Assembly: GCF_001423245.1 (NCBI RefSeq)
Contig: NZ_LMOH01000029.1
Span: forward strand, 1 to 64,000
Direction of reading: 5' to 3'
Origin: Aureimonas sp. Leaf324
GTDB lineage: Bacteria > Pseudomonadota > Alphaproteobacteria > Rhizobiales > Rhizobiaceae
DNA length: 64,000 nucleotides
The notes under the pieces are model-generated. The model did not search any database. It was not told the origin of the DNA and was given only the letters and a program-made list of their open reading frames with translations. Made by a program: the position numbers and the translations under genes. Of this stretch, positions 10,795-31,710 are shown one piece after another; positions within the stretch are counted from its first letter, which is position 1; every line of letters begins with the position of its first letter.

Positions 10795-10890
10795 TGCGTC
10801 TCCCATGCGCTCAGCGCATACCGAAGCAATGAGTGTTTCGCCTGAGAGCGTGACTTACTGCGCCACCAAGAAATGGCGTCTGGCACCTGT

Positions 10891-11309: not shown

Positions 11310-11322
11310 CTTCGACTGACCT

Positions 11323-12639: not shown

Positions 12640-12649
12640 ATTGGTCTCC

Positions 12650-13213: not shown

Positions 13214-13414
13214 GAAGTAACCTCCCCACCGGCAGGAGATAACATCGTAGCTTGAGAGTCAAATATTCTGCATCGGTTAGAAACTTCGCTTTAGACGCGG
13301 ACGATTACCTGTTAAAAATCAATTTAATTGTGTTATCAGTAATATAAAAGCAATACCGTGTAGACTAATCGCGACGGGAACCGCTTTGAACTACGTATTC
13401 CGGTACGCCAGCCA
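13214..13414. promoter_or_regulatory. Divergent AT-rich control region between SLOG and SLATT operons
   Basis: About 200 bases separate the leftward and rightward signalling operons. The central part (13250-13370) is markedly AT-rich for this genome (TTAAAAATCAATTTAATTG and similar), as expected for promoters in both directions. No operator could be defined with confidence. Confidence 0.4.
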
Positions 13415-13772: not shown

Positions 13773-13783
13773 AGGAGACTCAG

Positions 13784-14749: not shown

Positions 14750-14759
14750 GGGGATGACG

Positions 14760-16040
14760 ATGAGTGCAAGGTCGGGCCTGCCTGCTTGGAACGTAGTGCT
14801 GCAGTTCATGACGGGGCCTGGCGTCAGTCCCGCCTCGAGTAGCTGTAAGCGTTTCGCGATCGCCGGATTGCAGCGGCCGATCCGTATCCTGTTCCTGCCC
14901 TGCCACCCGAGCGCCGTCCCGATGGCGCTGGCTGCGCATGATATCCTCGACGCCCAGTTGACCGCCCGGGGAGTGGCTATGCCGTATTTTTGCGGCGTGG
15001 CCCGAACAGGCGACTGTATGGCCTGGAGCGAGCCGGCTTGCGAGCAAGTCCTCGTGCCAGTCATTGGGGCGGACTTGGCGGCCCCAGCCCAACCCCACGG
15101 CGGTGCCAGCAACGCAGCCGACTTCATCGTTGACTGGCTGGCCTGCGGGCCGATGGCCCGCCTGTTGCCGGCGGTCATGCCTGGGGTTTCAACGGGGTCA
15201 GCACTTGCGAAGGTCCCACTGCAAGCCTCACGGGCCAATGCCGTGCCTTGGGGCGGCAGCCCACAACACTTGGCGGCCATCGCCTTCCGTTGGCAGCGGC
15301 GGAGCGCCTTCCTAAGCTACCGTCGCCAGGATGCGGCGCCTGTTGCGGACCAAATTTTTGATGGCCTCGGTCGGGCAGGATACCGCACCTATGTCGATCG
15401 TTTCTGCGGTACGGCCGGCAGCTATTTTCCTGACGAGCTCGCTGAGGAACTCGCCGACAAAGACGTCGTCGTGGTCCTCGAGAGTGCTAATATCCGGAAA
15501 TCGACATGGACGATGTGGGAGGTGGCGTTCGCTCACCGCTACCGCATAGGCGTTGTCGCGATCCAACTGCCCGGCGCGCCGGCGCTGAAGCGGATCACCG
15601 ATCGCAAAAGCATCGCCACCCTAAACAGATCGAACCAGTTGTTCGGTGCCGACCTCGACGACGTCATCGAGTTCATCGCGCTCAACACTGCTTTGGGGAC
15701 ACCGCGCCGGGCCGCCTTCTACGAAGCGATCGTCGCCTCGGCCGCAAGCTCCGGCGGCGGCTCGTCCCAGAGCCTCGGCGACGGCCTGCTGCAGGTCGTC
15801 GACCGCAAAGGCGTGTCCAAGGCCGTGGTGCTAGCGCATGGACGTCCGGGCATCCTGTCGGACGTGCGCCGGCTCGACGTTCCGGCTGCCCAGGCGACCG
15901 GGGTGACACCGCTGCTGGTTGGCCAGCATGAGCACTTGCCCGCTACTGCTGCCGACGACCTCAAGTGGATCGCAGGCCAGCGCGGTATCTCGCTGCGCGG
16001 CCGCTTTGACACATACATGCACGTGAAAAACTTGTGCTGA
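14760..16040 (+). CDS. TIR-domain protein with unknown N- and C-terminal domains
   Basis: 426 aa. Residues ~181-290 are a TIR domain (RSAFLSYRRQDAAPVADQI, YRTYVDR and TMWEVAFAHRY with candidate catalytic Glu254). The N-terminal ~165 residues (RPIRILFLPCHPSAVPMAL onward) form a separate alpha/beta domain I cannot name. The C-terminal ~130 residues include AVVLAHGRPG and may be another small alpha/beta domain. ATG 14760 is preferred over 14754 because AGGGG lies at usable spacing. The gene is downstream of the SLATT gene with a 10-base gap and upstream of the 229-aa gene with a 7-base gap, so all three are one operon. TIR domains of this kind commonly hydrolyse or cyclise NAD+. The actual product is unknown. 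Confidence 0.8.
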   Translation: MSARSGLPAWNVVLQFMTGPGVSPASSSCKRFAIAGLQRPIRILFLPCHPSAVPMALAAHDILDAQLTARGVAMPYFCGVARTGDCMAWSEPACEQVLVPVIGADLAAPAQPHGGASNAADFIVDWLACGPMARLLPAVMPGVSTGSALAKVPLQASRANAVPWGGSPQHLAAIAFRWQRRSAFLSYRRQDAAPVADQIFDGLGRAGYRTYVDRFCGTAGSYFPDELAEELADKDVVVVLESANIRKSTWTMWEVAFAHRYRIGVVAIQLPGAPALKRITDRKSIATLNRSNQLFGADLDDVIEFIALNTALGTPRRAAFYEAIVASAASSGGGSSQSLGDGLLQVVDRKGVSKAVVLAHGRPGILSDVRRLDVPAAQATGVTPLLVGQHEHLPATAADDLKWIAGQRGISLRGRFDTYMHVKNLC

Positions 16041-16047
16041 GGCCGCC

Positions 16048-16737
16048 ATGGATATACTGATTTTTGTCGATCCTGATGCCCACGAGCAACGACTGGCGCT
16101 GGAGATCGCGGCGACAGTCGCCGAGTTCTGCGCCGTTGAGCGGCGGTCTGCATCTGTTCTCGCTGATGAGCCGACGGCGGTGGAAATCGGCATCGGCCTC
16201 CTTGGGCTGATCGATCCGCCGACGGTCGAGGGTGGCGGCCGCGCCGGTTCCACCATCACGCTGCTCCCTCCCATCTATCGATACGACGAGGACTACGTGC
16301 ATGCCGATGGCGAGGTGCCCGACAACTCGTTCAGGACCCTACTCGATGCCGGGGTGTTCGCCCGGCCCGCGGATGGCGACCGGACGTCCAAGGTGGCTGG
16401 CGACCCACTAAGTGACGCCATTGTGGAAGGGCAGCCACTGATTCTGCTAGGACTGGGACTAGCCTCGGAATACTGGAAGACAGTGCAGGCTCGCCTTCTC
16501 GACCGATCCAATACCGAGGTGTTGTTGATCGATGGATTGGCGCCTCTTCTTGACGATCGTATCCTCCAGAAGCGTCTATCTCAACCAAGACTGTCTTTGG
16601 CCGAGCGGCGCACGTTCGAAGACGACCGTTTTCACGAGGCTGAGAGGGAAGCTTATCACGATGGCCAAACGGTCGCCGGAGTTATCGAATTTCTGCGCGA
16701 ACGGTTCGATCGTCCGGCGCGGCGGCGCGGCGGCTGA
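16048..16737 (+). CDS. Unknown 229-aa protein in the SLATT-TIR operon
   Basis: No family recognised. The sequence starts with a beta-strand-like segment (MDILIFVDPDAHEQRLAL) followed by an acidic helix. A central strand-helix pattern (PLILLGLGLASEYW, NTEVLLIDGLAPL) suggests an alpha/beta Rossmann-like fold, and the C-terminus is a charged helix. There is no signal peptide or membrane span. It begins 7 bases after the TIR gene and ends the operon. Given its neighbours it may be a TIR-like or SLOG-like accessory subunit, but that is speculation from context. Confidence 0.6.
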   Translation: MDILIFVDPDAHEQRLALEIAATVAEFCAVERRSASVLADEPTAVEIGIGLLGLIDPPTVEGGGRAGSTITLLPPIYRYDEDYVHADGEVPDNSFRTLLDAGVFARPADGDRTSKVAGDPLSDAIVEGQPLILLGLGLASEYWKTVQARLLDRSNTEVLLIDGLAPLLDDRILQKRLSQPRLSLAERRTFEDDRFHEAEREAYHDGQTVAGVIEFLRERFDRPARRRGG

Positions 16738-17120
16738 CCCGTTGCGCCGTATCCTCGTGCATGCGATTTAAAGGCGCTGGACCTAAAGCGTCATCCATGC
16801 CCCCTGCGAACGGATTCTCATGCCGCCGATGCGTCCCAGTCTCGCGAGGCGCAACTAGGATCGGTCGGTCCGCAGGGAATGCGGATTTTGCAACTCGATC
16901 TCCCAAGCGCGACCCTCATCCTACTACCGCAAGTTCTCAAGGACTGCGACTCGCTGGCGGAGCCCTGACACCGGATGCAGCCCCGAGACTTCGCCTCCGG
17001 CAAAAAGGTACCGAGAGCCAGCGTCATCGGCGATCGCGGCGTTGCCCGCACGATCGACCAGGCTCTGAAGATCGGCTTCCGTTTCCACGAAACCCGGCCC
17101 ACGGAGGTGGGAGTCGAGGG
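16738..17120. other. Intergenic stretch with decayed coding DNA
   Basis: No intact gene. Minus-strand frames stay open through much of it (16924-17120), continuing the composition of the broken TnsA-like gene to the right. It may hold further remnants of that gene or of a downstream partner. No recognisable motif. Confidence 0.3.
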
Positions 17121-17938
17121 CTACATGGAGTGGGTAGATCCGGCTACCGGCAGCGAAACGGGATTGAAGCGCTCGACGCTCCTCTCGGTCGCGACGACCT
17201 CTTCGCTCCGCTTGACCGCGTTCCGGACGATCTGAAGATTGAAGATGCGCTGCTCGAAGAGCTTCTGAATCGGCTTCTGGGTCAGCCGGGTCCGCCGCTG
17301 CACCTCGATCCGGGTCAGCGCGGCCGGCTTCTCCCGCGTCGTCAGCTCCACCACCTCGGCTTGGGGCACCAGGACCGAGTCCAGAACCTCGGCGCCCCGA
17401 GAATTGCAGACCCGCAACAACCTGCCGACCAGGACGAGCTTCAGCACCTCGGGAAACGTACAGATCACGGCTTGCCGGGCATCGGCGAGGGTCGCCATGC
17501 CGGAAGGGATCCTCTCGACCACCTTCCCCCAGAAGAGCTTCCATGGTGCTGTCGACATTCCTCGCGCCGAAGCGGTGCTGGGCGTTGTAGACCCTGCCGG
17601 CATCGGTGATGCTGACGAAGTCGCCGGCCTGCACGATCGCCTCTATGTGGCGCCTGGTAAGGTCCGTCCTATTCATGACCCCGCCCGTCGATGCCGACGT
17701 GGCGGGTGTCGAACCAGTGTGTGCGGTCGATGTTCTCGTTGTCCAGGAAGCGCACCGGCGGCAGCTGCTCCTGCAGCTCGACGACGCGAGGATCGGCGAT
17801 CAGCACGTTGCGCCACTGTTCCTCGAGACCGCTCTCGAATACGAACTCACGTTGACGGAAGGGATCCACGACGAAGTCGACGCGGGATCCGCGCTTCTTC
17901 GCGGACGGACGGCGAGATGCGGTGGAATCATCGATCAT
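17121..17938 (-). pseudogene. TnsA-like endonuclease, broken by frameshifts
   Basis: From ATG 17938 the frame encodes ~89 residues with FVFESGLEEQWRNVL and THWFDTRHVGIDGR, resembling the N-terminal endonuclease core of TnsA-like proteins (the Glu and Asp could be catalytic). It ends at 17669. The continuation lies in a second frame from 17676 (NRTDLTRRHIEAIVQAGDF, then YNAQHRF) and after about 17530 in a third frame, to TGA 17121-17123 (VVERIPSGMATLADARQAV, LTQKPIQKLFEQRIF). Together the three segments total about 270 residues, close to TnsA size. At least two frame breaks, and perhaps a deletion around the expected catalytic Lys, indicate a dead gene. It may be a relic of a Tn7-like or Tn5053-like element. 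The assignment is from motif resemblance only. Confidence 0.5.
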
Positions 17939-18119
17939 GGGCGTGCTCAGTTGGTGGCGGCGATCGGCATTCGGGGGAATGCTCGGCACTCCGGTCCCGA
18001 CGCCACGCTGCCTCCTTCTCCGGAGGCAAACGGCGCAGCCAATCGCTGGAGGGATGCCTGAGGACAGGCACACCCCCCAAACTAGCGTGCAGTTGGGTAT
18101 GGCAGGGAAGCTTTTCGTC

Positions 18120-19391
18120 ATGCGTATCAGCCGTAGGGAACTGTACGAGCGCGTTTGCCAGAGTCCGTTGAGCAAGATCGCACCGGACTTCAGCATTTCC
18201 GGGACAGCGCTGGCTGCCATCTGCCACAAACACCGGATTCCCTACCCGGGATCAGGGTACTGGACGCGCAAGGGCTTGGGACTTGCTGTTGAGCTGCCGC
18301 CACTGCCCGATAGCATCGATGAGACCATCGAAATCATGGCAGCGCCGGCGAAGCCAAGACTGAAACGGCTGGAAGGGGAGGCGGCGGCCTCAACAAGGAA
18401 GCGAGCCTCCAGGCCTCCGCTTCCACCTCGGCACCCCATCCTATTCGGCGTTGAAGAGCACTTCCGCAAAACACGGGCGGCGGAACGGGGCGAGTTCCTT
18501 CGGCCGTATAAGCGTATCCTGCCAGACGTGCGATCATCGGAGGCTTCGCTCTCACGAGCGCTATCCATCGCGAACGACGTCTACGTGGCGCTGAGGGATC
18601 AACAGCTTGACGTTCGAATTGCGCAAGCCGGCGATGACCTGCATGGAATTCATGTCGACGAGCAGGAGGTCGCGCTCAAAGATCGCAGATATGGTCGCTA
18701 TCACTCTGGCGGTATCTGGTCGCCAGATCGCCCGACGGTCTTTACAATTGGTGCCGTGCCGATCGGTCTGGCGCTCATCGAAATGACTGAGCGCGTGACG
18801 ATGCGATATTACGGTGGTGATTATCACCGCGAGGATAGCCACACGATCAGATCTGCAAGACCCTGGCAGCTGGCAAACTCCTGGACGACCGAGCAGGACA
18901 TGCCGTCGGGTCGATTTCGGCTTGTTGCCTACTCGCCGAAACGAAACGTTGATTGGTCATTGCGATGGCAGGAGGCGGATGGGCGAACCCTACAGACGCT
19001 AACTGCCGCGATCGTTGAAGAGCTGAAGGCGTCGGCCGATAGGGTACAGCGCCTCATGGACGCCGAGGAGCGAGCGGCGGCTGAGCGGGCAAGGGAAGCG
19101 AAGGAGCGTTGGGAGCGTTACGAGCGCGAAGAGGATGTTCGAAAGGCTGCACAAGCAATTGTCGACAGTCAAAAGCAACTTAGTGATATTATCGAGCGAT
19201 GGGGAAAGGCGGTGACCGTCGAGCGATTTTTTACAGACATAGCTCAACGGTTAGACAGCGTGGATACAGAGCGTCGAGAGTGTATCGGAGAGCGCGTCGC
19301 ACTTGCCAAGGCCATGTTGGGGAGCACTGATCCGTTAAAATTCATCGAAGACTGGGTCTCTCCTGTTGAGCGGTATCGTTCGAAATTTTAA
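18120..19391 (+). CDS. Helix-turn-helix-type protein of unknown function
   Basis: 423 aa from ATG 18120 (MRISRRELYERVCQSPLSKI). The N-terminus follows a pattern common in alphaproteobacterial proteins: LYE-x-V, then IAPDFSISGTALAAICHKHR and PYPGSGYW. It looks like a helix-turn-helix segment followed by a G-Y-W motif. The middle is alpha/beta, and the C-terminus (~310-365) is a long charged helix (EERAAAERAREAKERWERYE) likely to form a coiled coil. A longer frame reaches back to 17922 but runs over the TnsA-like gene on the other strand. AGGGAAG lies about 12 bases before the chosen ATG. There is no close operon partner. It may be a DNA-binding accessory of the island, and its function is unknown. 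Confidence 0.6.
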   Translation: MRISRRELYERVCQSPLSKIAPDFSISGTALAAICHKHRIPYPGSGYWTRKGLGLAVELPPLPDSIDETIEIMAAPAKPRLKRLEGEAAASTRKRASRPPLPPRHPILFGVEEHFRKTRAAERGEFLRPYKRILPDVRSSEASLSRALSIANDVYVALRDQQLDVRIAQAGDDLHGIHVDEQEVALKDRRYGRYHSGGIWSPDRPTVFTIGAVPIGLALIEMTERVTMRYYGGDYHREDSHTIRSARPWQLANSWTTEQDMPSGRFRLVAYSPKRNVDWSLRWQEADGRTLQTLTAAIVEELKASADRVQRLMDAEERAAAERAREAKERWERYEREEDVRKAAQAIVDSQKQLSDIIERWGKAVTVERFFTDIAQRLDSVDTERRECIGERVALAKAMLGSTDPLKFIEDWVSPVERYRSKF

Positions 19392-19755
19392 ACTCTCGTA
19401 CAGGCGGCCAGATCTGTTTCCCAAACCCGAAGCTCCATCAATCCCCATATTTTCTTGTACCATCCGCTGTCTCTGCGGAGTCACTTGTAGGACGGCTGCA
19501 ATGCAACGTAGCGAATAGGATCTCCAGCCGGTCGAAGCTCGCTCGTGAACCGGAAATCGTGTCATAACTTAACTGCTTCACCCGCGGATGTCTGCGAAGC
19601 GCCCATGCCGGTCATTGTCGCGGCTTAAACTGGATCCCGAAATCGGTCGTTCGTTCATCGCGATCAGCGCACCAGCGATCAAACCGCAGCGCTGATCGGT
19701 ACGACCAGCGCATCGAGATCGGCGACCTGATCATGATCTCGACGGTCATTGTCGC
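19392..19755. other. Intergenic DNA with short repeats
   Basis: No gene. CGGTCATTGTCGC occurs as a direct repeat at 19609-19621 and 19743-19755, and the DNA between contains several GATCAGCGC/GCGCTGATC-type repeats and partial palindromes. This is reminiscent of an IS end with multiple internal repeats, but no transposase is nearby. Confidence 0.3.
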
Positions 19756-19917
19756 TTACCCCGCGATTACCGCCGGATCTTCAAACGGATGGATGAAGGT
19801 GAGGCCACAGGTCCGGAAAAGCGTGCGGCTTCCCAGACATGGCGTATTTTCGATCGCGCCGGCGAGTCGAGCCGCCGAGTCTAAGATGTCCGTGATGGTG
19901 GGAGGCGAGCTGGTCAT
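19756..19917 (-). pseudogene. Threonine dehydratase (ilvA-like) fragment with internal deletion
   Basis: From ATG 19917 the frame encodes ITDILDSAARLAGAIENTP, matching the N-terminus of biosynthetic threonine ammonia-lyases (an I-x-D-I-x-x-A-A-x-R-x-x-G-x-x-x-x-T-P pattern). It then jumps directly to GLTFIHPFEDPAVIAG, which in the intact enzyme lies more than 100 residues further on and is normally followed by Gln-Gly-Thr. A TAA follows at once. The PLP lysine and core are absent. It is a displaced housekeeping-gene scrap, not functional. Confidence 0.55.
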
Positions 19918-20095
19918 GGTTCCCCGGGGGACACGACCTCGGAAGCGGCGCTGGTGAGGTACGCCCCGATGCCGGTAGTTGACGTGCATGGCGATCAAAA
20001 ATCCCCGCCACAGCACAAGACGCGCAGCAGCGCGCCATCGTCAGTATTTTGTGGCCGCCGGCCGTTGCTTGATGGCTCACTTCTCAGCGGACCGG

Positions 20096-20533
20096 TTATT
20101 GCTCCTCCGCGAACCCGGCGCGGATTTCGCCGCTGAGCTTCGCCGCCTTTGCCGCCGCTTTTTCTGGCGTCCGCAGGTCGCACTCCCATGCCACTAGAAC
20201 CTTCCAGCCCGAAGCCTGCAATTCGACGGCGGCAGCGGCATCGCGGGCGACGTTACGATTAAACTTGTCCACCCAGAATGATGTGTTTGTCTTCGGCGTC
20301 GTGGCGACCTTGCAACCTTCGTGCCGGTGCCAGAAGCAACCATGCACAAAGATTGCGGTCCGATATCTTGGCAGGACGATGTCGGGTTTTCCGGGCAGGC
20401 GATTGCCGTGCAGCCTGAACCTGAACCCGAGGCGATGGAGCGCCTTCCGGAGCGTGACCTCAGGTTTCGTGTTGGTCGATCGAATGCGCGACATGCGTTC
20501 CGAGCGCTGGGCAGGGGTCAGGGTGTCCACCAT
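20096..20533 (-). CDS. vsr: Very short patch repair endonuclease Vsr
   Basis: 145 aa from ATG 20533. Vsr nicks 5' of the T in T:G mismatches created when 5-methylcytosine deaminates, starting repair to C:G. Family motifs are intact: RSERMSRIRSTNTKPE (N-terminal), FRLHGNRLPGKPDIVLP with the catalytic Asp, FVHGCFWHRH with the active-site His and zinc-site residues, and NTSFWVDKF. It starts 5 bases after the stop of the large ATPase gene and is the last gene of the methyltransferase operon. Its presence supports the methyltransferase making 5-methylcytosine. Confidence 0.93.
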   Translation of the reverse strand: MVDTLTPAQRSERMSRIRSTNTKPEVTLRKALHRLGFRFRLHGNRLPGKPDIVLPRYRTAIFVHGCFWHRHEGCKVATTPKTNTSFWVDKFNRNVARDAAAAVELQASGWKVLVAWECDLRTPEKAAAKAAKLSGEIRAGFAEEQ

Positions 20534-20538
20534 TACCG

Positions 20539-23500
20539 CTACTCGCCCTGCTTCTCGCGCCGCGCCTCCAGCTCGAAGAAGGGTAGGCCACGGACGACCT
20601 CGCCCGGAACGTCGAACGACTTGTAGAGGCATTGGTGGACCTGAAGCGCCTTGACCCGCTCGGCCATTTCTGCAGCGCCCCCCGTCAGCCCCAGTGCAGA
20701 AAGCTCGGCAGGCGTGACATTGGGTACCTTGTGGACGAACCAGCTAAGCAGGGGCTCGCGATAGTCGGTCGCGTTGACCTTGAAGTGACGGAGATATTGC
20801 GAGGCCAGGATGACCCCGGTCCCAAATTCGCGACCTTGCAGGAGGAGCTTGCGCAGGACGTCGAACTCGTACCGCATGATATTGTCGGCCTCGTCGACCA
20901 ACAGGTAGGAATCAACGGCGCGGAGTTGAAGATCGCTTCCAATGAATGGCCGCTTGGGCGTCCGAAGCATGTTTTCGTAGAACATGTTCAGCATGACGGC
21001 GACGAGCATGTTCTTGCTGCGATCGTCCTGACCCAGCGCATCAAGCGAGATCACGACAACACCGTCGAGGAATGTGTCGAACGACTGGGTCTCGCTCGTT
21101 TTCGAGGCGAACACCTCCATGTCGACGAGGTCGTCGATGATCGCCATGGGCGAATCCGTCTTGCCGTCCAAAAGCTCGGCATAGGCTGAATGAACGTCGT
21201 AGAGCGTCGGCTGCTGGCCAGGGAGACACCCATCGTAGGCGGCGCGCACGGCCCGCTTGAGCTTGTCGCGCTGGACGGGCCCGATGCCAGTGTAGATCTT
21301 GTCGAGTACGTCCGCGAAGAAGCGAAAGCGGTCGAGCCATGGGGCCGCCGCCTCACCGATCGCGCTAGTGTCGAATAGGTTTAGAGGCAGTCGGTAGGGC
21401 TTCACGACGCGTGCGCCAGTCGCCTTGACGAATTCTGGGCTGCTATAGTCGCGCTTGTAGTCGAAGATCAGGAACCGCGGCCGGATGCCCCGGTTTGCCT
21501 CCGATGCATCCGAAATCTGCATGATCAGCGACTTGAGAAGTTGCGTCTTCCCGGTGCCGAGATCGCCCACGACGCCCATGTTGAGCTGGTTCAGGCGGGT
21601 GTCGGATATATTCAGCGTCACCTCGCCGGGACGGAAGCTATCCACGGTCGTGCCTATCGACAGGACGATGCCCGTCGACGCCTCGTCTTCCGCCACAGGT
21701 AATGCCGGCGCGGGCGCTACAGGCAATTCCGGCACCACCGAGACGTCCCTGGTAGCCCGATTTCCCATCTCTGCTGGCGGTACGTCGGTGGTGTCGGTCA
21801 CGTCGGGATCGAGGTGCGGTTGCACGACACCGGTCGTGAACGCGCGAGCGGTCGGGAACAGGTCCCACTGCCCAACCCTTGCTCTGACGCTGTCATAGAA
21901 AGCCAACGGGTCACCGGCGACAACCTGTCCTGCTTCAGCGCTTCCTATCGTAATGGTTTCGTCGAACCCATCGTCGTCGCGATCGCGCACGCCACTTCGT
22001 GGGCTGTCGTCCACGATGATGAGGCGCCCGCGCTGGTCGACCGACACGCAAGGCAGTGGATCGAGGATCGCTGCCGCAATCCGCTCGTGGAGCAATGACC
22101 ACTGCGCCTCGCGTCCGACGACGTCGGGATGCTGGCTGTAGACCCGCATGCCAAAGCCGATGATCGAGAGAAGCAGGTGCTGAAATCCCAGCGCCCACGC
22201 GACCGGCTGGCCCTCGTGGGGGAGCATATTGGCGAGCAGGCGCGAGAAAGTCCGGGCCTGTTCAAGGGCATCGTTCACCTCGGAAGGCGGGAATACCGAA
22301 CCCGGGCGGCACTTCACCTCGACTGGCGTAAGGTGGATCCGGACGCCATCAGCTCCGAGCTTCACACCGACCACCAAGAGGTCGGGACGCGAAAGCGACG
22401 CGTCTTTTCGGTCCTTGCTGAGGGATTTTGCTAGGTCGGAGAAATACCCTCGGAATGGGTCGACGGGAACGATGATGCAGACGGTGACGTCCTCGCCCGT
22501 GCCGTCGATGACGGGGACAAGGCTCTCGCCGATGTTTGAAAGGCGAAACCGATCTTGGAGCAACCGAACGGCGACGAACAGGCCAAGATCACCGGTCGCC
22601 CCAGCATTGTCGCCTGCGAGGCCCCTGATCGTCGGGATGCCGCGACGCGCGATCTCAAGCAACACGTCCTGAACTTGGTTGGGCTCGATCGCGGCGCATC
22701 CTGGTAGGCGACCGAGCGCCTTCGACAGCGCCTCGCGATCTGCCTGCTTGACTCGCGACAGGAGGTAGTAGCCGTTGGTGTCGCCCGCCCGGTGGGAATA
22801 GGACGGCATGTCGTAGTCCCACAGATATGCATCCTCGAGCCAGCCGCCCATGAAGCACGCGGGATCAATTGCCGAGGAGGAGACGGCAACGAAGTCTGTC
22901 CGGCGCGTCTCGAGCATGTCGCGCATGGCGTTGACGTTGGGTGCGAACCGCATGCCCGTACGGCGATCACCGAGGCTCTCCATAGTGCAAAGGCAGGCGG
23001 AAACCTTGTCGGCTAGGACATCACCCGAGGCTGATCCTGCGAGCGACTGGCGCGTCTCGCTCAGGAAGGCACCGGGCAGCTGGCGCCGGACACGATGGCG
23101 CAGCAAGCCGCCATGGCCAAGTGGTGATCGCCCAGAAACTGGCGCCGCGCTCGGTTCCGACATGTCGAGTTGTGCAATGATCCCAAGATCGGGTCGCGCA
23201 GTGACCGGCTGGCCCTCGAACCAACGCACGCTATTGCGCGTGTCTTCGGACAGGTTGGCGATCGTGGCATCGTCGGGCCGGGAATCCCCATCCCGGTGGT
23301 CGTAGATCTCGACGAAGCGCGGCCCTGCCGCCTGTCGCGGCGCACGACTGTCGCCATCGCGATATCGATCCGAGCACCAGCTGATGAGGCCCTCGTTGCA
23401 GGTATCTGTGGTGCCCCCCGCGCTGGCCACGACGACCCCGATCACCGGCTTTGCCGCGAGCAGGCCCGACACGTCCTCCAACGCGCGACCAACCTGCGCG

Positions 23501-26007
23501 GCGCTAAACCCGACCGAGATGCCGCCAACCGAAATGCCGAACCCCTCGCCAAATGGGGCAATCCGCGACCGGCTGGGAAGGCGACCGAGCCGTTCGCCAT
23601 TCCATAGGACGGACCAATAATCCGTGCCGTTCTCGACGGCGAGGAAATCGACCTTTTCGATGCCGCCGGGCGATCGGAGCGACAACGTTAACAGGTCGGG
23701 GACGCAATCGGGATCAAGGACGCTGACCGCGGGGCAAGGGTTCCCGCTGGACTCGGCTTCTAGGAGGACACTCTGCGCTACCGCATGCCAAGCGAGGCGT
23801 TGCGGGTGGAGCGGGGAGAGCATGATGGCGTCGGGAATCCGGGAGATCGTCCTGCGATCGTCCTCCAGGGAGGTGACGACACCGACGTCCACCCAGCAAG
23901 CCACGTCGGGTTCGGCTGCCAACCAGGCTTGATAGGCGTCGAGATATTGCTCGACGAGCACGCGAAATTCCTCGTCGGTCGCGAGCCACTTCCCGAGTTC
24001 GGCAGATTCAACCAGACCAGTTTGGTCGCCGGTGCCGCGGATGCGCGCGGCCAATTTCTGCCTGCTTTCCACGAAGCCTGCTGGCGGTTGGAATTCCGCG
24101 GCGTCCGGTCGCGGATCTTGGAGGAACCGCCCCGTGGAGAAGACCGGTCCGGCGCCCGTGCCCCACACGGGCTGGACCCAGGCTTCCACGTAGTCGTCGG
24201 CAAGCACGATCGGCAAATAGGACCTGCCAGCAGAATTTTCGGACAGCATCCAATCTTGCAAGCTCGAGGAGCGCGCGCTTCGGTTAAGCTGTACGACGGG
24301 CTTAGCTTCCGAAGGCTCGATCGCACGTCGATTTGCCCGGATCAGCCTCTCGAACTCGCTCCGGCAACCTTGCTCGACGACATCCTCTACCGCGAGGAAG
24401 ATGCGGCACGTTTCATGCGACGTGGAGCCGTCGGCAGCGGGGCGGCTGAAGCCAATGTCGATCTGGTAGTTCGTCTCGGCCTCGACCTCGACCTGATGGA
24501 AGCCCTCGCGCACCGGCCGGACAATGAGTTGCTGGATCGCGTCGATGCGATCTTGCGCATCGTCCGCAGTGCCCATGGCGGCAGCGTCCAGCACGACGCC
24601 CGGGGACGTGAAGACCAGCAACTCATATCGACCGCCGCCGGGCACGACGAGGCTAGTCTCTAGCTCCGGGGCACCCTTCGCGCGACGCGTAGGCTTGCGT
24701 GGCGGCGTGAGCTTCCGGGCAAGCCGGCAGGCGACGAAGATGCCGGGCTGCCACGTCGCCAGCGATACGACCTTGATAGCGCCCGGCTTGAAGCCGTCGG
24801 CAGACGCCGCATAGCGGATCGGCGCCTTGTGCCCCGGCGGTGCCTCGTCTAGGAAGACGGCCTCCTCCTCGCCGACACGAACCTCGCCAAGCTTGTTTCC
24901 CTTGCCCCGTTCGATCGACACAACCGTGCCCGAAGCGTCCGGACCGACTGTCTCGAACGTGAGGGCGACATTCCCCTCCACGAGGATTGGCATCCCCTTG
25001 GCGAGAGGAATAAGGGCGTTCGAGCACCCCATGCGGATGTCGCCCTGCGCTGCGGCATCCTCGGTCAACAATTCCGACCACTTCTCGGTCGTGAGCGCGC
25101 GCCACCAGTCGGGCGCAACAGGTATGTCCAACCCGTTTCCAGGCGCATAATATGCGGCGGTCGCCCGCTCAAAGGCCGTCGGGAGATCGCAAGCGTCGCG
25201 CAGGTGGGCAAGGAACGCGTCCAGATGGCCGCTATCGCAGTCGCTGGCATTTTCCTGTGCGCGACGGATGCCGGGCCCGAAGCCATCGGACATAGCGTCG
25301 GCAATCTTCTCCAGGACCGCCACTTGCTCGCGGGATGACACCGTTCCATCCCGCATCGGCGGCATGCCGCAGGCAAGGCTTACCTGCTGGCCGGGCGTGA
25401 TCCCTGCCAAGCCTGGCACCGCGGAAAAGAGGCGCGACAGGACCTTCCAGGCGGCCGCGCGCTGCGTCCGCTCTGGATCCATTTCGTCCGCTGCCGCGGC
25501 GGCTTTTCCTACCAACGCGCGTGCATCATCGCGCTGCTGCTGGTCCTGTATGCCCGCGAGGCCGATGCCGGCCCGAACCAAGTCCTGGATAAACTCGTCC
25601 GACCACCAATCTTCGAAGGGTACGCTCCCACCATTGTTGGCCGCCGCAACGCCGAACTCGTCCGTCGTCGACGTCACCGAGCGCATGCTGTGTTGGCCAG
25701 GGGGCACCAAAGCGAGGAACGTGGGCTGCGAAGGCGAATTTCGCAGGTTGAGCAGGTGCGTGTCGTCGCAGCGCCCGGACATCCCAACCGGCGGGTTTTC
25801 CTCGCCGATCGCCAAGCTCGGCAGCTGAAGCAAGATTGGTACTTGGGGCCCCGCGTCGGTGGGCACGGTCAGCAAGTCGAAAACTGTGGCGAGGATTTCC
25901 CGTTGCGGGCCGTGGAAGATCAACCGCACCTCGCCCTGGTCGCCGCCAGGCGATTGGGCGAGCTTGTCGCGGATGAGGTCCGCGATGGTGGAGGCCAGAC
26001 GGTTCAT
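20539..26007 (-). CDS. Large DndH/DptH-like HerA/FtsK-type ATPase with PD-(D/E)XK-like motif
   Basis: 1822 aa. The C-terminal ~370 residues form a HerA/FtsK-type ATPase: Walker A GDLGTGKT at 1481-1488 followed by QLLKSLI, then FLIFDYKRDY, Walker B YLLVDEADN around 1702-1708, and GTGVILASQYLRHF. This arrangement, especially Walker A-QLLKSL followed by FDYKRDY, resembles DptH, the large subunit of the DndFGH phosphorothioate-dependent restriction complex. About 270 residues upstream of Walker A, RPDLLVVG (Asp1209) and PVEVKC (Glu1230, Lys1232) form a PD-(D/E)XK nuclease pattern. The N-terminal ~1100 residues match no domain I can name. The start overlaps the stop of the 503-aa gene by 4 bases. 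Proposed role: ATP-driven DNA translocase/nuclease of a restriction complex. Assignment to DptH is by motif and gene order. Confidence 0.75.
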   Translation of the reverse strand: MNRLASTIADLIRDKLAQSPGGDQGEVRLIFHGPQREILATVFDLLTVPTDAGPQVPILLQLPSLAIGEENPPVGMSGRCDDTHLLNLRNSPSQPTFLALVPPGQHSMRSVTSTTDEFGVAAANNGGSVPFEDWWSDEFIQDLVRAGIGLAGIQDQQQRDDARALVGKAAAAADEMDPERTQRAAAWKVLSRLFSAVPGLAGITPGQQVSLACGMPPMRDGTVSSREQVAVLEKIADAMSDGFGPGIRRAQENASDCDSGHLDAFLAHLRDACDLPTAFERATAAYYAPGNGLDIPVAPDWWRALTTEKWSELLTEDAAAQGDIRMGCSNALIPLAKGMPILVEGNVALTFETVGPDASGTVVSIERGKGNKLGEVRVGEEEAVFLDEAPPGHKAPIRYAASADGFKPGAIKVVSLATWQPGIFVACRLARKLTPPRKPTRRAKGAPELETSLVVPGGGRYELLVFTSPGVVLDAAAMGTADDAQDRIDAIQQLIVRPVREGFHQVEVEAETNYQIDIGFSRPAADGSTSHETCRIFLAVEDVVEQGCRSEFERLIRANRRAIEPSEAKPVVQLNRSARSSSLQDWMLSENSAGRSYLPIVLADDYVEAWVQPVWGTGAGPVFSTGRFLQDPRPDAAEFQPPAGFVESRQKLAARIRGTGDQTGLVESAELGKWLATDEEFRVLVEQYLDAYQAWLAAEPDVACWVDVGVVTSLEDDRRTISRIPDAIMLSPLHPQRLAWHAVAQSVLLEAESSGNPCPAVSVLDPDCVPDLLTLSLRSPGGIEKVDFLAVENGTDYWSVLWNGERLGRLPSRSRIAPFGEGFGISVGGISVGFSAAQVGRALEDVSGLLAAKPVIGVVVASAGGTTDTCNEGLISWCSDRYRDGDSRAPRQAAGPRFVEIYDHRDGDSRPDDATIANLSEDTRNSVRWFEGQPVTARPDLGIIAQLDMSEPSAAPVSGRSPLGHGGLLRHRVRRQLPGAFLSETRQSLAGSASGDVLADKVSACLCTMESLGDRRTGMRFAPNVNAMRDMLETRRTDFVAVSSSAIDPACFMGGWLEDAYLWDYDMPSYSHRAGDTNGYYLLSRVKQADREALSKALGRLPGCAAIEPNQVQDVLLEIARRGIPTIRGLAGDNAGATGDLGLFVAVRLLQDRFRLSNIGESLVPVIDGTGEDVTVCIIVPVDPFRGYFSDLAKSLSKDRKDASLSRPDLLVVGVKLGADGVRIHLTPVEVKCRPGSVFPPSEVNDALEQARTFSRLLANMLPHEGQPVAWALGFQHLLLSIIGFGMRVYSQHPDVVGREAQWSLLHERIAAAILDPLPCVSVDQRGRLIIVDDSPRSGVRDRDDDGFDETITIGSAEAGQVVAGDPLAFYDSVRARVGQWDLFPTARAFTTGVVQPHLDPDVTDTTDVPPAEMGNRATRDVSVVPELPVAPAPALPVAEDEASTGIVLSIGTTVDSFRPGEVTLNISDTRLNQLNMGVVGDLGTGKTQLLKSLIMQISDASEANRGIRPRFLIFDYKRDYSSPEFVKATGARVVKPYRLPLNLFDTSAIGEAAAPWLDRFRFFADVLDKIYTGIGPVQRDKLKRAVRAAYDGCLPGQQPTLYDVHSAYAELLDGKTDSPMAIIDDLVDMEVFASKTSETQSFDTFLDGVVVISLDALGQDDRSKNMLVAVMLNMFYENMLRTPKRPFIGSDLQLRAVDSYLLVDEADNIMRYEFDVLRKLLLQGREFGTGVILASQYLRHFKVNATDYREPLLSWFVHKVPNVTPAELSALGLTGGAAEMAERVKALQVHQCLYKSFDVPGEVVRGLPFFELEARREKQGE

Positions 26008-27515
26008 GCAGGTTCTTCCTGGCGTTGTGGAAACGGTGGCACCAACAGCATCCCACTTTCCGCATCCGGGCTATCGAGCACCAAGCCAAGCATTCGCAAC
26101 TGGTGGCCTAGGTCGTTCGTAGCGATTTCGCGGTAATCGACGATCGCCCCATAACCGGCGAGGTGTTGCGAAAGTCGCCGCACTGATCGTGGGCCTGTCG
26201 TGCCGGCCAACGAGCAATGCACGAGCGCAAGCACGCTGACCGGTCCCAGCCCAACAACCCATGGACTCGAGTTGCTCGTTCCCCGCTTTCGTAGGGAAAA
26301 GCCCTGATCATAGCCGCGCAGGACCGGGTTCGCGGCTTGCCGCTGGCCGAGCACGTGGCGGGCGAACTCCATGATGTTCGAACCAATGCCCTTCTTGCAC
26401 AGCAGCGTTCGCGTTTCGCGCTCGGACACGTCGGCAAGCACGTCGCGAAGGCCAGTCGCCTCCACCTTCGCGGCATTCGCGCGGAGGAGATTGCACACGT
26501 CGGCTAGTCCCCTCGCAGACGAAAGCGATGCTACCTGGATGCCCGCCGCTTCAAGCCCCCAAAGCGTCGTATTGAGGCCGAGCCGAGCCTGCAAGAAGGC
26601 AGATGCCCGGTCCTTGATACCAGGCAGAGCCCGATCACCATATGATAGGAACTGGAAAGCCTTGGGATACATCAACGCGCGTGCCGCGTCCGCGTCCGCC
26701 GGCCCATTCCCATCGAGCGCCGCCTTGATGCACTCCCATGATTTGGCATGGACGTCGCACAACCACGTAACGTGTGCGACGGCCGCGAGCCGGACTATCG
26801 CCTCGAGGAGGCTCGTCCACTGGCGCCGCGTCATTGAATCCTTGGCGTCGATGATCGAGCCAAGGTCCCGGACGAAGCGCCGTGCAGGATAGTCGAGGCT
26901 TTCTCGGTCTGTCGGATCGAGCAGCGCCTGTTCGGCCGAATCGACAGCCGCCCAAGTCGGCTGGGGGCACCAAGCCTCGATTTCGGCCTGCAGGAAACGC
27001 GCGAAGATGTCGTCGTCGTCCGTGATTGATAGCGCCCCGAACAACGACTGCCAGATTGCGGCGGCAGATGCCTTATCTGGCGATCCCAGCCACACCATCC
27101 GCCGGATCAAGGCGCCCGCTGGCCAGGAATTACTGCTCAGTCGCGCCGATCCGGAAAAGACCGCGGCCTGCGGCACTAGCGGGGTAACCTGGACGAACCG
27201 CTTCGACGATTGGTTGGGGAGCTTCGGGCTTTCCAGCACCGAATGGAGCAATGTGTGGAAGGTGTCGGCATCCACCGCGGCGGTATCCGGCTTGCGCGCA
27301 CGGTCACGATACCATTGGACTTCCTTGTCGAGATCCCTCCCACGCTGGGGCACCGTGCGCTCCGTCGCGCCTTCCAGGCCGGCATGGCGATACAGGGACG
27401 ACAGGATAACCTCGGAACTCGCATATTCCGGCGCCGGCGACATGGCGAGCGCCGAGTCTTGGTAGGCACCATGCGAGGTACGCCACGGCTCTTCTCGAAA
27501 CCTTGCAAGCGTCAT
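26004..27515 (-). CDS. Unknown 503-aa protein in DndG/DptG position
   Basis: 503 aa, mostly helical, with no nucleotide-binding loop, no membrane segment and no metal-binding cluster. Both ends overlap neighbours by 4 bases (ATGA type), so it is translationally coupled between the AAA-type ATPase and the very large ATPase. That is the position and approximate size of DptG in dndFGH operons. Direct sequence similarity to DptG cannot be judged by eye. The C-terminus contains small beta-rich stretches (SPWVVGLGPVSVLALVHCSL). The likely role is a structural bridge of the restriction complex, inferred from context. Confidence 0.6.
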   Translation of the reverse strand: MTLARFREEPWRTSHGAYQDSALAMSPAPEYASSEVILSSLYRHAGLEGATERTVPQRGRDLDKEVQWYRDRARKPDTAAVDADTFHTLLHSVLESPKLPNQSSKRFVQVTPLVPQAAVFSGSARLSSNSWPAGALIRRMVWLGSPDKASAAAIWQSLFGALSITDDDDIFARFLQAEIEAWCPQPTWAAVDSAEQALLDPTDRESLDYPARRFVRDLGSIIDAKDSMTRRQWTSLLEAIVRLAAVAHVTWLCDVHAKSWECIKAALDGNGPADADAARALMYPKAFQFLSYGDRALPGIKDRASAFLQARLGLNTTLWGLEAAGIQVASLSSARGLADVCNLLRANAAKVEATGLRDVLADVSERETRTLLCKKGIGSNIMEFARHVLGQRQAANPVLRGYDQGFSLRKRGTSNSSPWVVGLGPVSVLALVHCSLAGTTGPRSVRRLSQHLAGYGAIVDYREIATNDLGHQLRMLGLVLDSPDAESGMLLVPPFPQRQEEPA

Positions 27516-29623
27516 CGGCCACCATCCTTGCGGATGGCGAAGCCTGATCGCCGTTGGACCACCGAAATGCCGCTAGATCCAATCCGGATACGCGCACGAT
27601 CCAACACAAGCTTGTCTCGGACAATCGGACCCGAAAGCCGCGCGCGCGTCGTATCAAGCATGGCGAGGACGGCGCGGGGAAGCGAGGCCACCGACATGCC
27701 CTTCTCGAGTTCCTTCACCGCCTTGAACAGATCGTAGGTCAGCGCGATTGGCTGCCCCGATCGGCCATCGCCGACCTTTAGGAAGCAAATGGGGGAAGCC
27801 GGTCTTCCAGCCTGCTCGGCATCGAGCGGCTGGACAGACCGGGACGGCACGACCAGTGTCGCCCGCCGGATCATGGGTGGCAGGGGCTGCCCGAAAGTCG
27901 TGGTCAGGGAAATCTCGAAATCTTGGTTTCGGTTCAAGAGCTGCTCGACCTCCTGTGCTACGTCGAACAGGTCATCCCCTGCGGTGTCCTCGATCACTCT
28001 CTGGAAATTCCTGAGGATCGGCGCGTCGAGCACGGCAGCGGTCCTCGTACCAAGCGCGCGACGAACGAGCCGGCAGGCAAAGTCGCGCACGAAGCGCTGG
28101 ACATTGGTGGCGGAAGCGGGCCGCCGACGTCGGACGCCACCAGCCGAAAGCTCCGCATCGAGCTTGGCCAGACGCTCGAGCAAGTCGACCTCGAGCCTCG
28201 ACAGCACGTGCAGCTTCCGAATGTAGTCGAGGCCTTCCAGAACCGACCGGCTGAACCTGACATCGAGCTCGCGGAGCGCAAATCGCGTATTCTTCGTGGC
28301 CTGCACTTCCGTATCCGGGTCGGTGAGGGCGGGGTCGAGCAGCTCGGCAACGCCTTCTAGCGCGCTTCCGATCATGGCAGGCAGGTAGGCAGTACGGCGA
28401 GACGTGAGGAACCACTGCAGCCCCATCGCCGTGTTGTCGTCGTCGAGCTTCAGTTCCTTGATGTCCCGCAGGAGTGCTGGGCCAGCATCTCGCTCCCAGC
28501 GGTGGAAAAGCGCATGCTGATATTGGGACGCTACCAGCTGGAAGATCGCGGTCGATTGATCCTTCGCTGGCTTTCCGCCGCGGCGGGCGATCTCGTCGAG
28601 TCCGGCCATCCTCCCGGCCCATTGGCAGGGCGCGAGGCTCGCTTCACGCGGCGACACGCGATGCCCGGCAAGCAAATAGGACGCCAACGAGAAAAGATCA
28701 CGGAAGCTCCAGCGCTTCCCGCTCGCCACTTCGAACCATCGCAGTATTTGGAGAAGCGACGTCTCTTCGCGTTCGCGCGCCAGACGTTCGCGACTTCCGC
28801 AGAATGGGCAGGACGCACCACCTGCGCACGAGCCCAGTGCTGGCCACTTCTTGTCGTCGAGCGCCGTGCGCAACAGGCTCCGCGCGGGCTCCTCGCCACC
28901 TGCGACAGGCGTCAGCAACAAGGATTCAGCATCCATTGGCCATACGGCCACTTCGGCAAAGCCAGCAAGGGGCCAGCAGGAGGGCGCGTCCGGGGCGAGG
29001 CTGACGGCGCGCGTAACGGCTTCCAACAAGCGGCGCGATGCGTCCCGATCATTGTCGATCGCCTCGATCAGGGCATCGTCGAGCACGCCGCGGTTCACGC
29101 AGCACAAATATGCCTCAGTCGGGCCCGCCGCTTGCATCTCATCGAGTTCATCGAGCAGCAGTTGCGCAGCTTGCTTGCCGGTCGTGCCCACCACTGCCGA
29201 GGCGTCCTGCACGATCGACAACCCGAGCGTGCGTGAACCGGGGCCAAGGTGCGCAGTATCCACCCTGACAAGCCGCGGGACGGGCGTGCCCTCCGGCGGG
29301 AAGAAGGATTTCTTGAGTTCGTCGGCGATCTTTCCGCCGGCGGCGAGTGCCGAGTCGAGCCACCCCACGGTCGATTCGATCGCCTCGGTCTTCCCATTCC
29401 CAGGACCGCCGACGAGCAACAAAATGCGGGGGACGCTGCCAGGCCCGGCAGCGATCGATCCAGCCCAGGCTTCGAGCCTGTGCAGCAGGTTCGTCTCGAA
29501 AACCATCTGGCCCGGCCGACCGCTTCCAGCATCGAATAGGCGGCGCACGCCGCCCGACCGGTTTCCTGACCAATTCAAGAGTTGCGCCGGAAAAGGCGCC
29601 TCGATCGCTTCCCCCATCATCAT
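27512..29623 (-). CDS. P-loop ATPase in DndF/DptF position
   Basis: 703 aa. Walker A is GGPGNGKT at residues 72-79, preceded by the strand RILLLV. A LLLDELDEM segment near residue 165 is Walker-B-like, and AYLCCVNRGVL resembles an AAA-type sensor-1 strand. A CPFCG knuckle lies near residue 275. The C-terminal half is helical. Order and architecture match DptF, the ATPase of dnd restriction modules. Three consecutive ATGs at 29623-29615 could start translation. The gene begins 6 bases after the methyltransferase stop and overlaps the next gene by 4 bases. Proposed role: ATP-dependent regulator or loader of the restriction complex, by analogy. Confidence 0.7.
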   Translation of the reverse strand: MMMGEAIEAPFPAQLLNWSGNRSGGVRRLFDAGSGRPGQMVFETNLLHRLEAWAGSIAAGPGSVPRILLLVGGPGNGKTEAIESTVGWLDSALAAGGKIADELKKSFFPPEGTPVPRLVRVDTAHLGPGSRTLGLSIVQDASAVVGTTGKQAAQLLLDELDEMQAAGPTEAYLCCVNRGVLDDALIEAIDNDRDASRRLLEAVTRAVSLAPDAPSCWPLAGFAEVAVWPMDAESLLLTPVAGGEEPARSLLRTALDDKKWPALGSCAGGASCPFCGSRERLAREREETSLLQILRWFEVASGKRWSFRDLFSLASYLLAGHRVSPREASLAPCQWAGRMAGLDEIARRGGKPAKDQSTAIFQLVASQYQHALFHRWERDAGPALLRDIKELKLDDDNTAMGLQWFLTSRRTAYLPAMIGSALEGVAELLDPALTDPDTEVQATKNTRFALRELDVRFSRSVLEGLDYIRKLHVLSRLEVDLLERLAKLDAELSAGGVRRRRPASATNVQRFVRDFACRLVRRALGTRTAAVLDAPILRNFQRVIEDTAGDDLFDVAQEVEQLLNRNQDFEISLTTTFGQPLPPMIRRATLVVPSRSVQPLDAEQAGRPASPICFLKVGDGRSGQPIALTYDLFKAVKELEKGMSVASLPRAVLAMLDTTRARLSGPIVRDKLVLDRARIRIGSSGISVVQRRSGFAIRKDGGR

Positions 29624-29629
29624 ACCCTC

Positions 29630-30958
29630 TTAGGCCGTCGCCGCGACTGCGCGGTTAGCAGCTCGATCGCCAAACACGGATTTCGTGATCGCGACTTCCT
29701 GGAGCAGGTTTCGGACAGCCACGCCGATTGCCCGGGCGAGATACGGCGGCACCGCATTTCCGACCTGCGTGTAGCGCGGGCATTCCTTCGTTCGACGGTC
29801 GCCGCCAGTCGTGAACTTGCCCTTGAACTCGAACCAGTCCGGGAAGGATTGTAGCCGAGCAGTCTCGCGGACCGTGAGTATGCGCGGCTCGCAATAGTGA
29901 AGGATGTCGTCAGGCAGCGTCGTCACCGTAGGTGCCGGCTCGCCGCTCGCCATCGGATAGATCCGGTGCTTCTTCAAGCCGTAGGTTTTGCGGCTTTCAT
30001 CATCCATCCTCACGCCCTTGCGACACTCGACGATAATGCGGGCAAACCGTTCCCGCACGTCGTCCCGGTGCCGGGCAAGCCGCATGCTATCCATCTTACC
30101 GTCGCAGCCGGCCTGCATGAGCCGCTGGTACGTCGTCGTCGGCTTGGAATATCTAACCTCGCGAAATCCTCGGCCGGATTCCGGGTCAGTGCAATCGACC
30201 ATCGTTCGACCGACGGTCTCCAAGTCCGACAAGGCGCTCGACGCGCTGACCGCCTCGGGAAGTCCCAGCTCCTTCAGTTGCGCGAGGCGTGCCTCCTCTA
30301 GCAACTCGAACATTCTTGCGATGCCGCCCTCTAGCCACTCGCACAGGTCCTTGCGGATGCCGACGGCAATGAGGCGCGAACGGCGTTGGGGCACGCCAAA
30401 CCGCGATGAATCGACCAGCATCGCTTCCATCTTGTACCCAGCGGCGTCGAGGCTATCGACGAGCTTGTCATAGAAGGACTTCGGTTTCGCAAGAGGCTCG
30501 CCCGCGACGGGCAGCTCGACGACGTTCCTGCGCGCATGGGCGACTTTCATCCCGGGCACGTTCTCCAGGATCAGCGCTTGCGGCTGCAGCGCGTCGACAA
30601 CCTCGACGTACTTTTCGAACAAGAGGTTGCGCGGATCTTCCTCGACGCGGCGACCGGCAAAGCTGAAACCCTGGCACGGAGGCCCCCCCGCGAGGACGTC
30701 GATCTTCTCGCGGAGCCCGACCAAGTCGGCCTTGTGGCGGGCGAGCAATTGCTCGATGTCCCAGGCCTGTTTCTCGAGCCAATTCGGCCAGTCAAAGGCA
30801 TGTCCCGCCGCAGGCTTTTCGATGAAGTTGGCAGAGAAGGTTTCGAACGCCATGGGATCGCGCTCGATGGCGAATTTTCCCTTCAGTCCAGCCTGGGACA
30901 GCCCTAGCGACAAGCCCCCGCACCCTGCGAATAAATCGGCAAAACTATATGACTTCAT
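29630..30958 (-). CDS. DNA (cytosine-5-)-methyltransferase
   Basis: 442 aa from ATG 30958 (a TTG 9 bases upstream is also in frame). All core m5C methyltransferase motifs are visible in order: motif I DLFAGCGGLSLG (SAM binding), motif IV GGPPCQGFS with the catalytic Cys, motif VI LENVPG, motif VIII QRRSR, and motif X GNAVPP near the C-terminus. It transfers a methyl group from SAM to C5 of cytosine in a specific sequence. The target-recognition region between motifs VIII and IX gives no hint of the site. It is the first gene of a five-gene leftward operon ending in vsr. It probably marks self DNA for the DndFGH-like proteins downstream. Confidence 0.93.
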   Translation of the reverse strand: MKSYSFADLFAGCGGLSLGLSQAGLKGKFAIERDPMAFETFSANFIEKPAAGHAFDWPNWLEKQAWDIEQLLARHKADLVGLREKIDVLAGGPPCQGFSFAGRRVEEDPRNLLFEKYVEVVDALQPQALILENVPGMKVAHARRNVVELPVAGEPLAKPKSFYDKLVDSLDAAGYKMEAMLVDSSRFGVPQRRSRLIAVGIRKDLCEWLEGGIARMFELLEEARLAQLKELGLPEAVSASSALSDLETVGRTMVDCTDPESGRGFREVRYSKPTTTYQRLMQAGCDGKMDSMRLARHRDDVRERFARIIVECRKGVRMDDESRKTYGLKKHRIYPMASGEPAPTVTTLPDDILHYCEPRILTVRETARLQSFPDWFEFKGKFTTGGDRRTKECPRYTQVGNAVPPYLARAIGVAVRNLLQEVAITKSVFGDRAANRAVAATA

Positions 30959-31623: not shown

Positions 31624-31710
31624 TGGTGCGGGCGGTCGGACTCGAACCGACATATCCGTGAGGACGGCGGATTTTGAGTCCGCTGCGTCTACCAATTCCG
31701 CCACGCCCGC
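31624..31710 (-). tRNA. tRNA-Leu (anticodon CAA)
   Basis: The minus strand reads 5' GCGGGCGTGGCGGAATTGG..., folds with a 7-bp acceptor stem (GCGGGCG/CGCCCGC), a seven-base anticodon loop CTCAAAA giving anticodon CAA, a long variable arm (GTCCTCACGGATAT region) as in class II tRNAs, and a TTCGAGTC T-loop. Discriminator A and an encoded CCA end at 31624. The 3' end faces the accessory island, the usual geometry for integration by a tyrosine recombinase. Confidence 0.95.

Follow-up and report, generated by a model that had tools for sequence, protein, structure and literature searches.

Can a restriction machine of the DndFGH (DptFGH) type use 5-methylcytosine (m5C), rather than phosphorothioate, to mark self DNA? 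The question is raised by a five-gene locus of Aureimonas sp. Leaf324, which lies in the first 64,000 nucleotides of contig NZ_LMOH01000029.1 ("the window") and encodes a DNA cytosine-C5 methyltransferase (M), three proteins in the order of the DptFGH trio (F, G and H) and the T:G mismatch endonuclease Vsr. An earlier note on this DNA, made from the letters alone, had proposed that a Dnd-type restriction complex was here rewired to read cytosine methylation, with Vsr limiting mutation at the methylated site. Our analysis of the locus and its relatives leads us to think it probable that the cassette is a restriction-modification-like system with m5C, not phosphorothioate, as the self mark. The gene set appears new in the literature searched and is a relative of known DndFGH systems: in openly licensed PubMed Central (PMC) papers we found no description of a C5 methyltransferase together with a DndFGH-like trio and Vsr, with the reservation that the taxon list of PMC10853773 may include some of the loci.

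If this reading is true, restriction by DndFGH does not depend on phosphorothioate. Base methylation and a DndFGH-like complex would also form a genetically simple pair for asking how such complexes tell self from foreign, which is called an open question in PMC10853773. Relatives of the cassette recur in dozens of bacterial species. It has probably been overlooked elsewhere, since F and G match none of the PADLOC and NCBIfam models used, H matches only as DndH, and F and G are labelled hypothetical in all three annotated plasmid records with the cassette.

Linkage of a C5 methyltransferase to F, G and H

The five genes form a single leftward operon on the minus strand (window 20096-30958). 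Six bases separate M from F, F and G as well as G and H overlap by 4 bases, and 5 bases separate H from Vsr, in agreement with the earlier description of 4-base overlaps and gaps under 7 bases. For Vsr, a start at 20533 is most likely and is favoured over the start of the longest open reading frame (ORF) at 20632. The cluster is not a chance arrangement, because the M-F-G-H order and the tight spacing recur in related loci.

From its sequence M is unambiguously a cytosine-C5 methyltransferase, matching Pfam DNA_methylase (E 1e-54) and NCBIfam dcm (E 1e-44) and containing the motifs PPCQ, ENV and QRRSR; among other methyltransferase profiles of PADLOC, it also matches DruM and DrmMII. A PDB sequence search returned general m5C methyltransferases and gave no hint of the target site. 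Across the related loci, QxRxR is present in 69/69 methyltransferases and motif IV in 67/69, being missing in L058 and in the single L070 piece used.

To collect these loci, we built a profile of F from five sequences, which found 67 loci in genome contigs and 2 in viral contigs, belonging by their record titles to at least five phyla (Pseudomonadota, Bacteroidota, Planctomycetota, Verrucomicrobiota and Gemmatimonadota). We then scanned the ORFs of these loci, of plasmid loci and of the window itself for F, G, H, M and Vsr, using a profile of each. We dropped L001, L002, L003 (window copy), L008-L010 and L077 (51 residues matched), leaving 73 loci, 57 of them with complete flanks and 70 complete upstream. 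In 60 of the 70 upstream-complete loci, M directly precedes F on the same strand (59 by script, plus L039, with an over-extended F start as a start-choice artefact), and the spacing in these 60 has a median of 9 bases (longest-ORF starts). Counting either side and either strand, a C5 methyltransferase is present within 3 kb in 56 of the 57 complete loci (55 by script, plus L039); the single exception is L060, whose genome holds three C5 methyltransferase matches at other places. Vsr is present in 41/57. In seven canonical dptFGH loci taken from plasmid records as controls, M, Vsr and glycosylase were each found in 0/7 whole fetched loci. The survey of neighbourhoods that the earlier note had called for thus supports M and Vsr as recurrent partners of the trio.

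The three proteins and the methyltransferase differ in how they are inherited. Over 65 loci, pairwise distances of F, G and H correlate with each other at r 0.98-0.99 and those of M with these at 0.66-0.67, which argues that F, G and H are inherited together as a unit, with M as a near-constant but replaceable partner.

The earlier note had also stated that dnd modification genes are missing. DndC, the only one of these genes searched, was found over cut-off in 0/50 genomes (the window's and 49 carriers of the 67 loci), while the control was positive in 2/2 canonical records, so for DndC the statement stands. A DndC-like protein in L080, from the genome of L035, scored 130 bits against a cut-off of 290.

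The F, G and H proteins and known systems

Sequence comparison identifies H as a homologue of DptH that ends in a DndH-type HerA/FtsK ATPase. Its best PDB match is the solved DptH C-terminus (7es4, E 1e-43), hhalign aligns it with DptH at 100% (E 6e-44, 350 C-terminal columns), and seven DndH profiles of PADLOC are matched (best E 2.4e-67, residues 1475-1813). The ATPase has Walker A GDLGTGKT and Walker B LLVDEA, and H carries GDLGTGKTQLLKSL and FDYKRDY, as the earlier note had quoted. In the profile libraries the similarity to DndH is limited to the last 340 to 375 residues; the ATPase domain alone has inflated DndH counts (PMC10853773).

Ahead of the ATPase lies a PD-(D/E)XK nuclease motif, whose P, D, E and K are invariant in a 51-sequence alignment (the window and 50 of 51 candidate rows). 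The spaced pattern occurs in 64/66 H proteins and was missed in L064 and L065, of which L064 is in that alignment. For a model of H residues 600-1440, with a predicted local distance difference test score (pLDDT) of 85, the four best Foldseek matches were Dim1/KsgA-type methyltransferases, all weak (best E 0.017, probability 0.75-0.87, none under 0.001), with carbamoyltransferases mixed in lower down, and the pattern [SDN]PP[FYW] is found in only 2/66 H proteins. These matches are weakly in line with the inactive methyltransferase domain with which DndH is described (PMC10853773). In the Pseudoalteromonas locus L007 (11478-18230), the N-terminus of H is a separate 164-aa gene and M comes after H.

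F is probably a remote homologue of DptF, as judged by profile-profile comparison only (hhalign probability 86%, E 5e-6, 217 columns; 0.7% against DptH, also a P-loop protein). The alignment is in register over Walker A, an N-x-G motif at the Walker-B position and the lid region, and includes an Asp that could be the acidic residue of strand 2, the ND motif itself not being seen; Walker A and NRG are present in 71/71 F proteins. PMC10853773 names as traits of DndF an Asn in place of the Walker-B Asp and, in strand 2, an ND motif. Family models did not recover F: no PADLOC family reached E 0.01, none from NCBIfam or Pfam passed its cut-off, a PDB sequence search found no relative (best E 0.16) and, up to E 0.1, there was no match to the DptF model TIGR03238, which the DptF proteins of L008 (Aliivibrio) and L088 (Priestia) pass at 1.7e-157 and 9.6e-148. 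At the genome level, every TIGR03238 match in the window's genome fell below cut-off (best E 0.07). Among 369 genomes from the class to which Pseudomonas aeruginosa PA7 belongs, the model found 2 partial matches; in relatives it scored 0/61, a count that does not prove absence because the control genomes gave no signal either. Phage records yielded a single short match to F, covering 5% of the query.

G, which occupies the DptG position, gave no signal against DptG by hhalign (0.3%) and no match to TIGR03236 (a model passed by the DptG of L008). Nor did it match a PADLOC family at E 0.01, pass the cut-off of any NCBIfam or Pfam family or find a relative in a PDB sequence search (best E 0.79). 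Its AlphaFold2 model is confident (pLDDT 91, from 56 sequences: the window and 55 of 59 candidate rows) and appears mostly helical, with a C-terminal helix-helix-helix-hairpin that resembles a winged helix; Foldseek against the PDB returned nothing at E <= 0.001 (best E 0.27). Across the window's own order, a search with G found the window alone (1/297 genomes). The earlier identification of the trio as DptFGH is therefore supported for F and H by hhalign, while hhalign and Foldseek give no link between G and DptG; by the curated models, with F failing TIGR03238 and G failing TIGR03236, the trio is not DptFGH.

The cassette resembles DndFGH systems in the overlapping F-G-H gene order, in an F with a P-loop and Asn at the Walker-B place, and in an H of similar size with a nuclease motif followed by a terminal HerA/FtsK ATPase. 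It differs in the lack of DndC over cut-off in the 50 genomes tested, in an F and a G that fail the NCBIfam models passed by canonical DptF (L008, L088) and DptG (L008), and in the added C5 methyltransferase, often with Vsr or a glycosylase. DndFGH is presented in PMC10853773 as a standalone system that lacks an inbuilt modification module. The same paper describes cytosine methylases with DndD/CxC-DndE systems, in which, as in the cassette, an m5C methylase replaces the phosphorothioate genes beside Dnd-related proteins; those systems, however, centre on DndD/CxC and DndE, together with an HKD nuclease-helicase, rather than on F, G and H.

Other defence systems were compared as well. DISARM with DrmMII and Druantia type II with DruM place an m5C methyltransferase beside large ATP-dependent proteins, and the cassette's M matches both methyltransferase profiles, but no Pfam SF2-helicase family is listed for F, G or H. 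At E 0.01 in PADLOC, F, G, H and Vsr have no match to Drm proteins (DrmA, DrmB, DrmC). Druantia type II, suggested by the gene sizes (M, two proteins and one of ~1800 aa), was rejected on the same threshold, as these four proteins match no Dru profile (DruE, DruF, DruG) and H is HerA/DndH-like. H matches mad8 of MADS at 3e-11 through its ATPase, and the families listed for the five proteins (25 of 63 for M) include no second profile of the mad1-mad8 set. The text of PMC12839542, on BREX and HerA capture systems, makes no mention of Vsr.

The repair slot beside H

Vsr is unambiguous by sequence (TIGR00632 E 6e-43, Pfam Vsr 3e-32, both run on the longest ORF, reaching 20632). In L062, L063 and L067, an HhH-GPD DNA glycosylase stands directly after H, and profiles located two further glycosylases, one on the other strand in L068 and one as a 119-aa fragment in L069. 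A Mig-like glycosylase is thus present in 5 of the 57 complete loci, and a glycosylase together with Vsr in none of the 57. The five are mutually 37-56% identical, their hosts span three phyla, and a tree of F requires a minimum of two changes between Vsr and glycosylase (a quick tree with long branches, hence provisional).

A simple restriction-modification system offers a parallel in M.MthTI and Mig.MthI, an m5C methylase paired with a T/G glycosylase. A Mig-like glycosylase likewise accompanies the C5 methyltransferase in five distant cassettes, although the known pairing is not known to include an FGH complex. T:G specificity is what we would predict for the five enzymes. Of the two that were compared with PDB sequences, the one from L067 has the Mig.MthI structure 1kea as its nearest match (115 bits, against 100 for the best MutY) and the one from L062 is slightly nearer MutY (112 bits, against 108 for Mig.MthI); at 119-257 aa, none has room for the MutY C-terminal domain. 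The place of MutY Val45 is taken by Ala in the four glycosylases with an N-terminus, as in Mig.MthI, and that of Gln182 by Trp in all five; the roles of these residues in MutY and Mig.MthI are set out in PMC2714593. Tyr in the HhH motif was rejected as a Mig marker, because Bacillus stearothermophilus MutY has it too, and Ala and Trp were used instead.

Two unrelated enzymes, both probably for T:G mismatches, thus share one slot beside H. Their sharing of a slot and of a probable lesion suggests that m5C is placed on the host chromosome and that its deamination is a managed cost; Mig.MthI handles deaminated 5-methylcytosine (PMC2714593). The earlier suggestion that Vsr limits mutation at the methylated site is strengthened by the replacement in five loci, and the exchange would be a natural case for the view that the cost of mutation shapes defence systems.

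Proposed mechanism, rival readings and genomic setting

We propose that M places m5C at its own sites in the host chromosome and that F, G and H would assemble into an ATP-driven complex related to DndFGH. H would supply the HerA/FtsK translocase and the PD-(D/E)XK nuclease, F would be a nucleotide-binding, kinase-like subunit and G probably a DNA-binding subunit. The complex would attack incoming unmarked DNA and spare marked DNA, with cleavage as the likely effector step and phage among the presumed targets; marking, translocation, cutting and sparing are all expected from what the protein families do biochemically. Vsr, replaced in some distant relatives by a Mig-like glycosylase, would repair the T:G mismatches that arise from deaminated marked cytosines, which would offset the mutational cost of a permanent m5C mark.

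Several observations weigh against this proposal. Restriction and protection by the cassette are presumed from its genes. The Fisher P values (M, 1.3e-8; repair slot, 5e-5) ignore relatedness and overstate the evidence, as the loci are related and the seven controls few; among these controls, dptG is in two pieces in L085 and L087 has no whole dptH. A relation of G to DptG is not demonstrable. Over the N-terminal two thirds of H, the match to DptH is colinear (profile columns 688-1283 to DptH columns 595-1159) but weak (E 9e-4, probability 24%), and at the extreme N-terminus hhalign gives only 5% (columns 18-67 to 12-58). Neither Vsr nor a glycosylase is present in 11/57 complete loci. The Trp at the Gln182 place occurs in neither MutY nor Mig.MthI as described, and Ala and Leu changes gave E. 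coli MutY no T/G activity (PMC2714593).

M has been exchanged in L012, L044, L045 and other loci. In L012 (10004-20877), FGH is about 91% identical to the window's and M is missing upstream; an m5C methyltransferase 32% identical to M lies downstream on the other strand, a second one elsewhere in the genome is 27% identical, and Vsr was not found at the locus by profile search. L044 and L045 carry a different methyltransferase. In L070, M is in two overlapping pieces (8548-9982) and FGH is intact; we counted this locus as having M, and the split clashes with a protection model unless it is a sequencing error. L012 and L070 fit strict protection worst. If FGH read one fixed motif, the swapped methyltransferases would need equal specificity, and very different methyltransferases beside near-identical FGH are not predicted by a fixed one-to-one rewiring. 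If FGH instead accepted m5C whichever C5 methyltransferase makes it, the methyltransferases would be exchangeable. We put forward only tentatively, and with more doubt than belief, a DndFGH-related translocating nuclease that accepts m5C fairly independently of which methyltransferase made it, combined with a Vsr-or-Mig-like T:G repair module.

Two loci with unusual gene content were seen in the same survey. In L050 (6676-9987), F is preceded by two tandem C5 methyltransferases that differ from each other, the first being 62% identical to the lone one of L044. In L059 (Arenimonas, 9992-19065), F, G and H are broken up, with M and Vsr intact. The fragmented genes of L059 and L070 may reflect decay or sequencing error.

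The swapping of M while FGH stayed constant, like the P-loop kinase traits kept in F, also suits a standalone sensor-effector, the role proposed for DndFGH in PMC10853773. FGH would then be triggered by phage-derived nucleotides or proteins, and M and Vsr would be a separate solitary-methyltransferase module whose mark is not the discriminator and regulates genes or blunts self-damage. We regard this as unlikely, since a dispensable passenger should be lost more often than M is: it keeps its place beside F (median 9 bases in 60 loci) and is lost within 3 kb in only 1 of the 57 complete loci.

Much less plausible is that the mark is the target, with FGH attacking m5C-bearing DNA and M tagging invaders or replicating foreign DNA. 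An AspBHI-N-type protein, of a family of cutters of modified DNA, comes right after H in L076, which would suit such a role; no Pfam m5C reader domain was found in F, G or H, so that either direction of sensing would fit. An ordinary C5 methyltransferase such as M should, however, mark the chromosome too, and a Vsr or glycosylase attached to the cassette is best understood if the host keeps a marked chromosome. That Vsr is the operon's effector nuclease rather than a repair enzyme, in line with the prediction of Vsr-type nuclease domains as active parts of ARMADA systems (PMC12458937), is likewise hard to credit, because Vsr is absent from 16/57 complete loci, 5 of these 16 having the unrelated glycosylase, and H has a conserved nuclease motif of its own.

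Table 1. Coordinates of the operon, its predicted domains, the neighbouring tRNA gene (all in the window) and the glycosylases predicted in related loci (in each locus)
Feature	Location	Strand	Size or extent	Description
M	29630..30958	-	442 aa, ATG start	DNA cytosine-C5 methyltransferase
F	27512..29623	-	703 aa	P-loop protein, probable remote DptF homologue
G	26004..27515	-	503 aa	occupies DptG position
H	20539..26007	-	1822 aa	multidomain, C-terminal HerA/FtsK ATPase, DptH homologue
HerA/FtsK-type ATPase domain of H	20572..21594	-	residues 1472-1812	7es4_A alignment range
PD-(D/E)XK nuclease motif of H	22312..22386	-	P1208-D1209 ... E1230-V-K1232	
Vsr	20096..20533	-		T:G mismatch endonuclease
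tRNA-Leu(CAA)	31624..31710	-		beside operon, at G+C step
Glycosylase, L062	19048-19782			Mig-like HhH-GPD
Glycosylase, L063	19129-19851			Mig-like HhH-GPD
Glycosylase, L067	19082-19855			Mig-like HhH-GPD
Glycosylase, L068	19072-19734	-		Mig-like HhH-GPD
Glycosylase, L069	16326-16685			Mig-like HhH-GPD

The operon probably lies within a genomic island, because a tRNA-Leu gene stands about 0.67 kb from its end and G+C goes from about 0.63 up to 0.70 there; the tRNA is the likely island edge. A 20-base piece of it has no second copy within the window at up to 3 mismatches. TIR-domain and TPR-S proteins are kinds known from defence islands, and the neighbourhood left of the operon looks like one, with two TIR-domain proteins (ThsB-like) and a TPR-S protein (5379-8447 on the minus, 14664-16037 on the plus and 11326-12657 on the minus strand). 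Around distant cassettes, the AspBHI-N-type protein of L076 lies at 11891-13054 and a TIR protein of L072 at 13573-15045, and the L060 cassette is accompanied by an HNH nuclease (19117-20346) and a reverse transcriptase (6623-8620).

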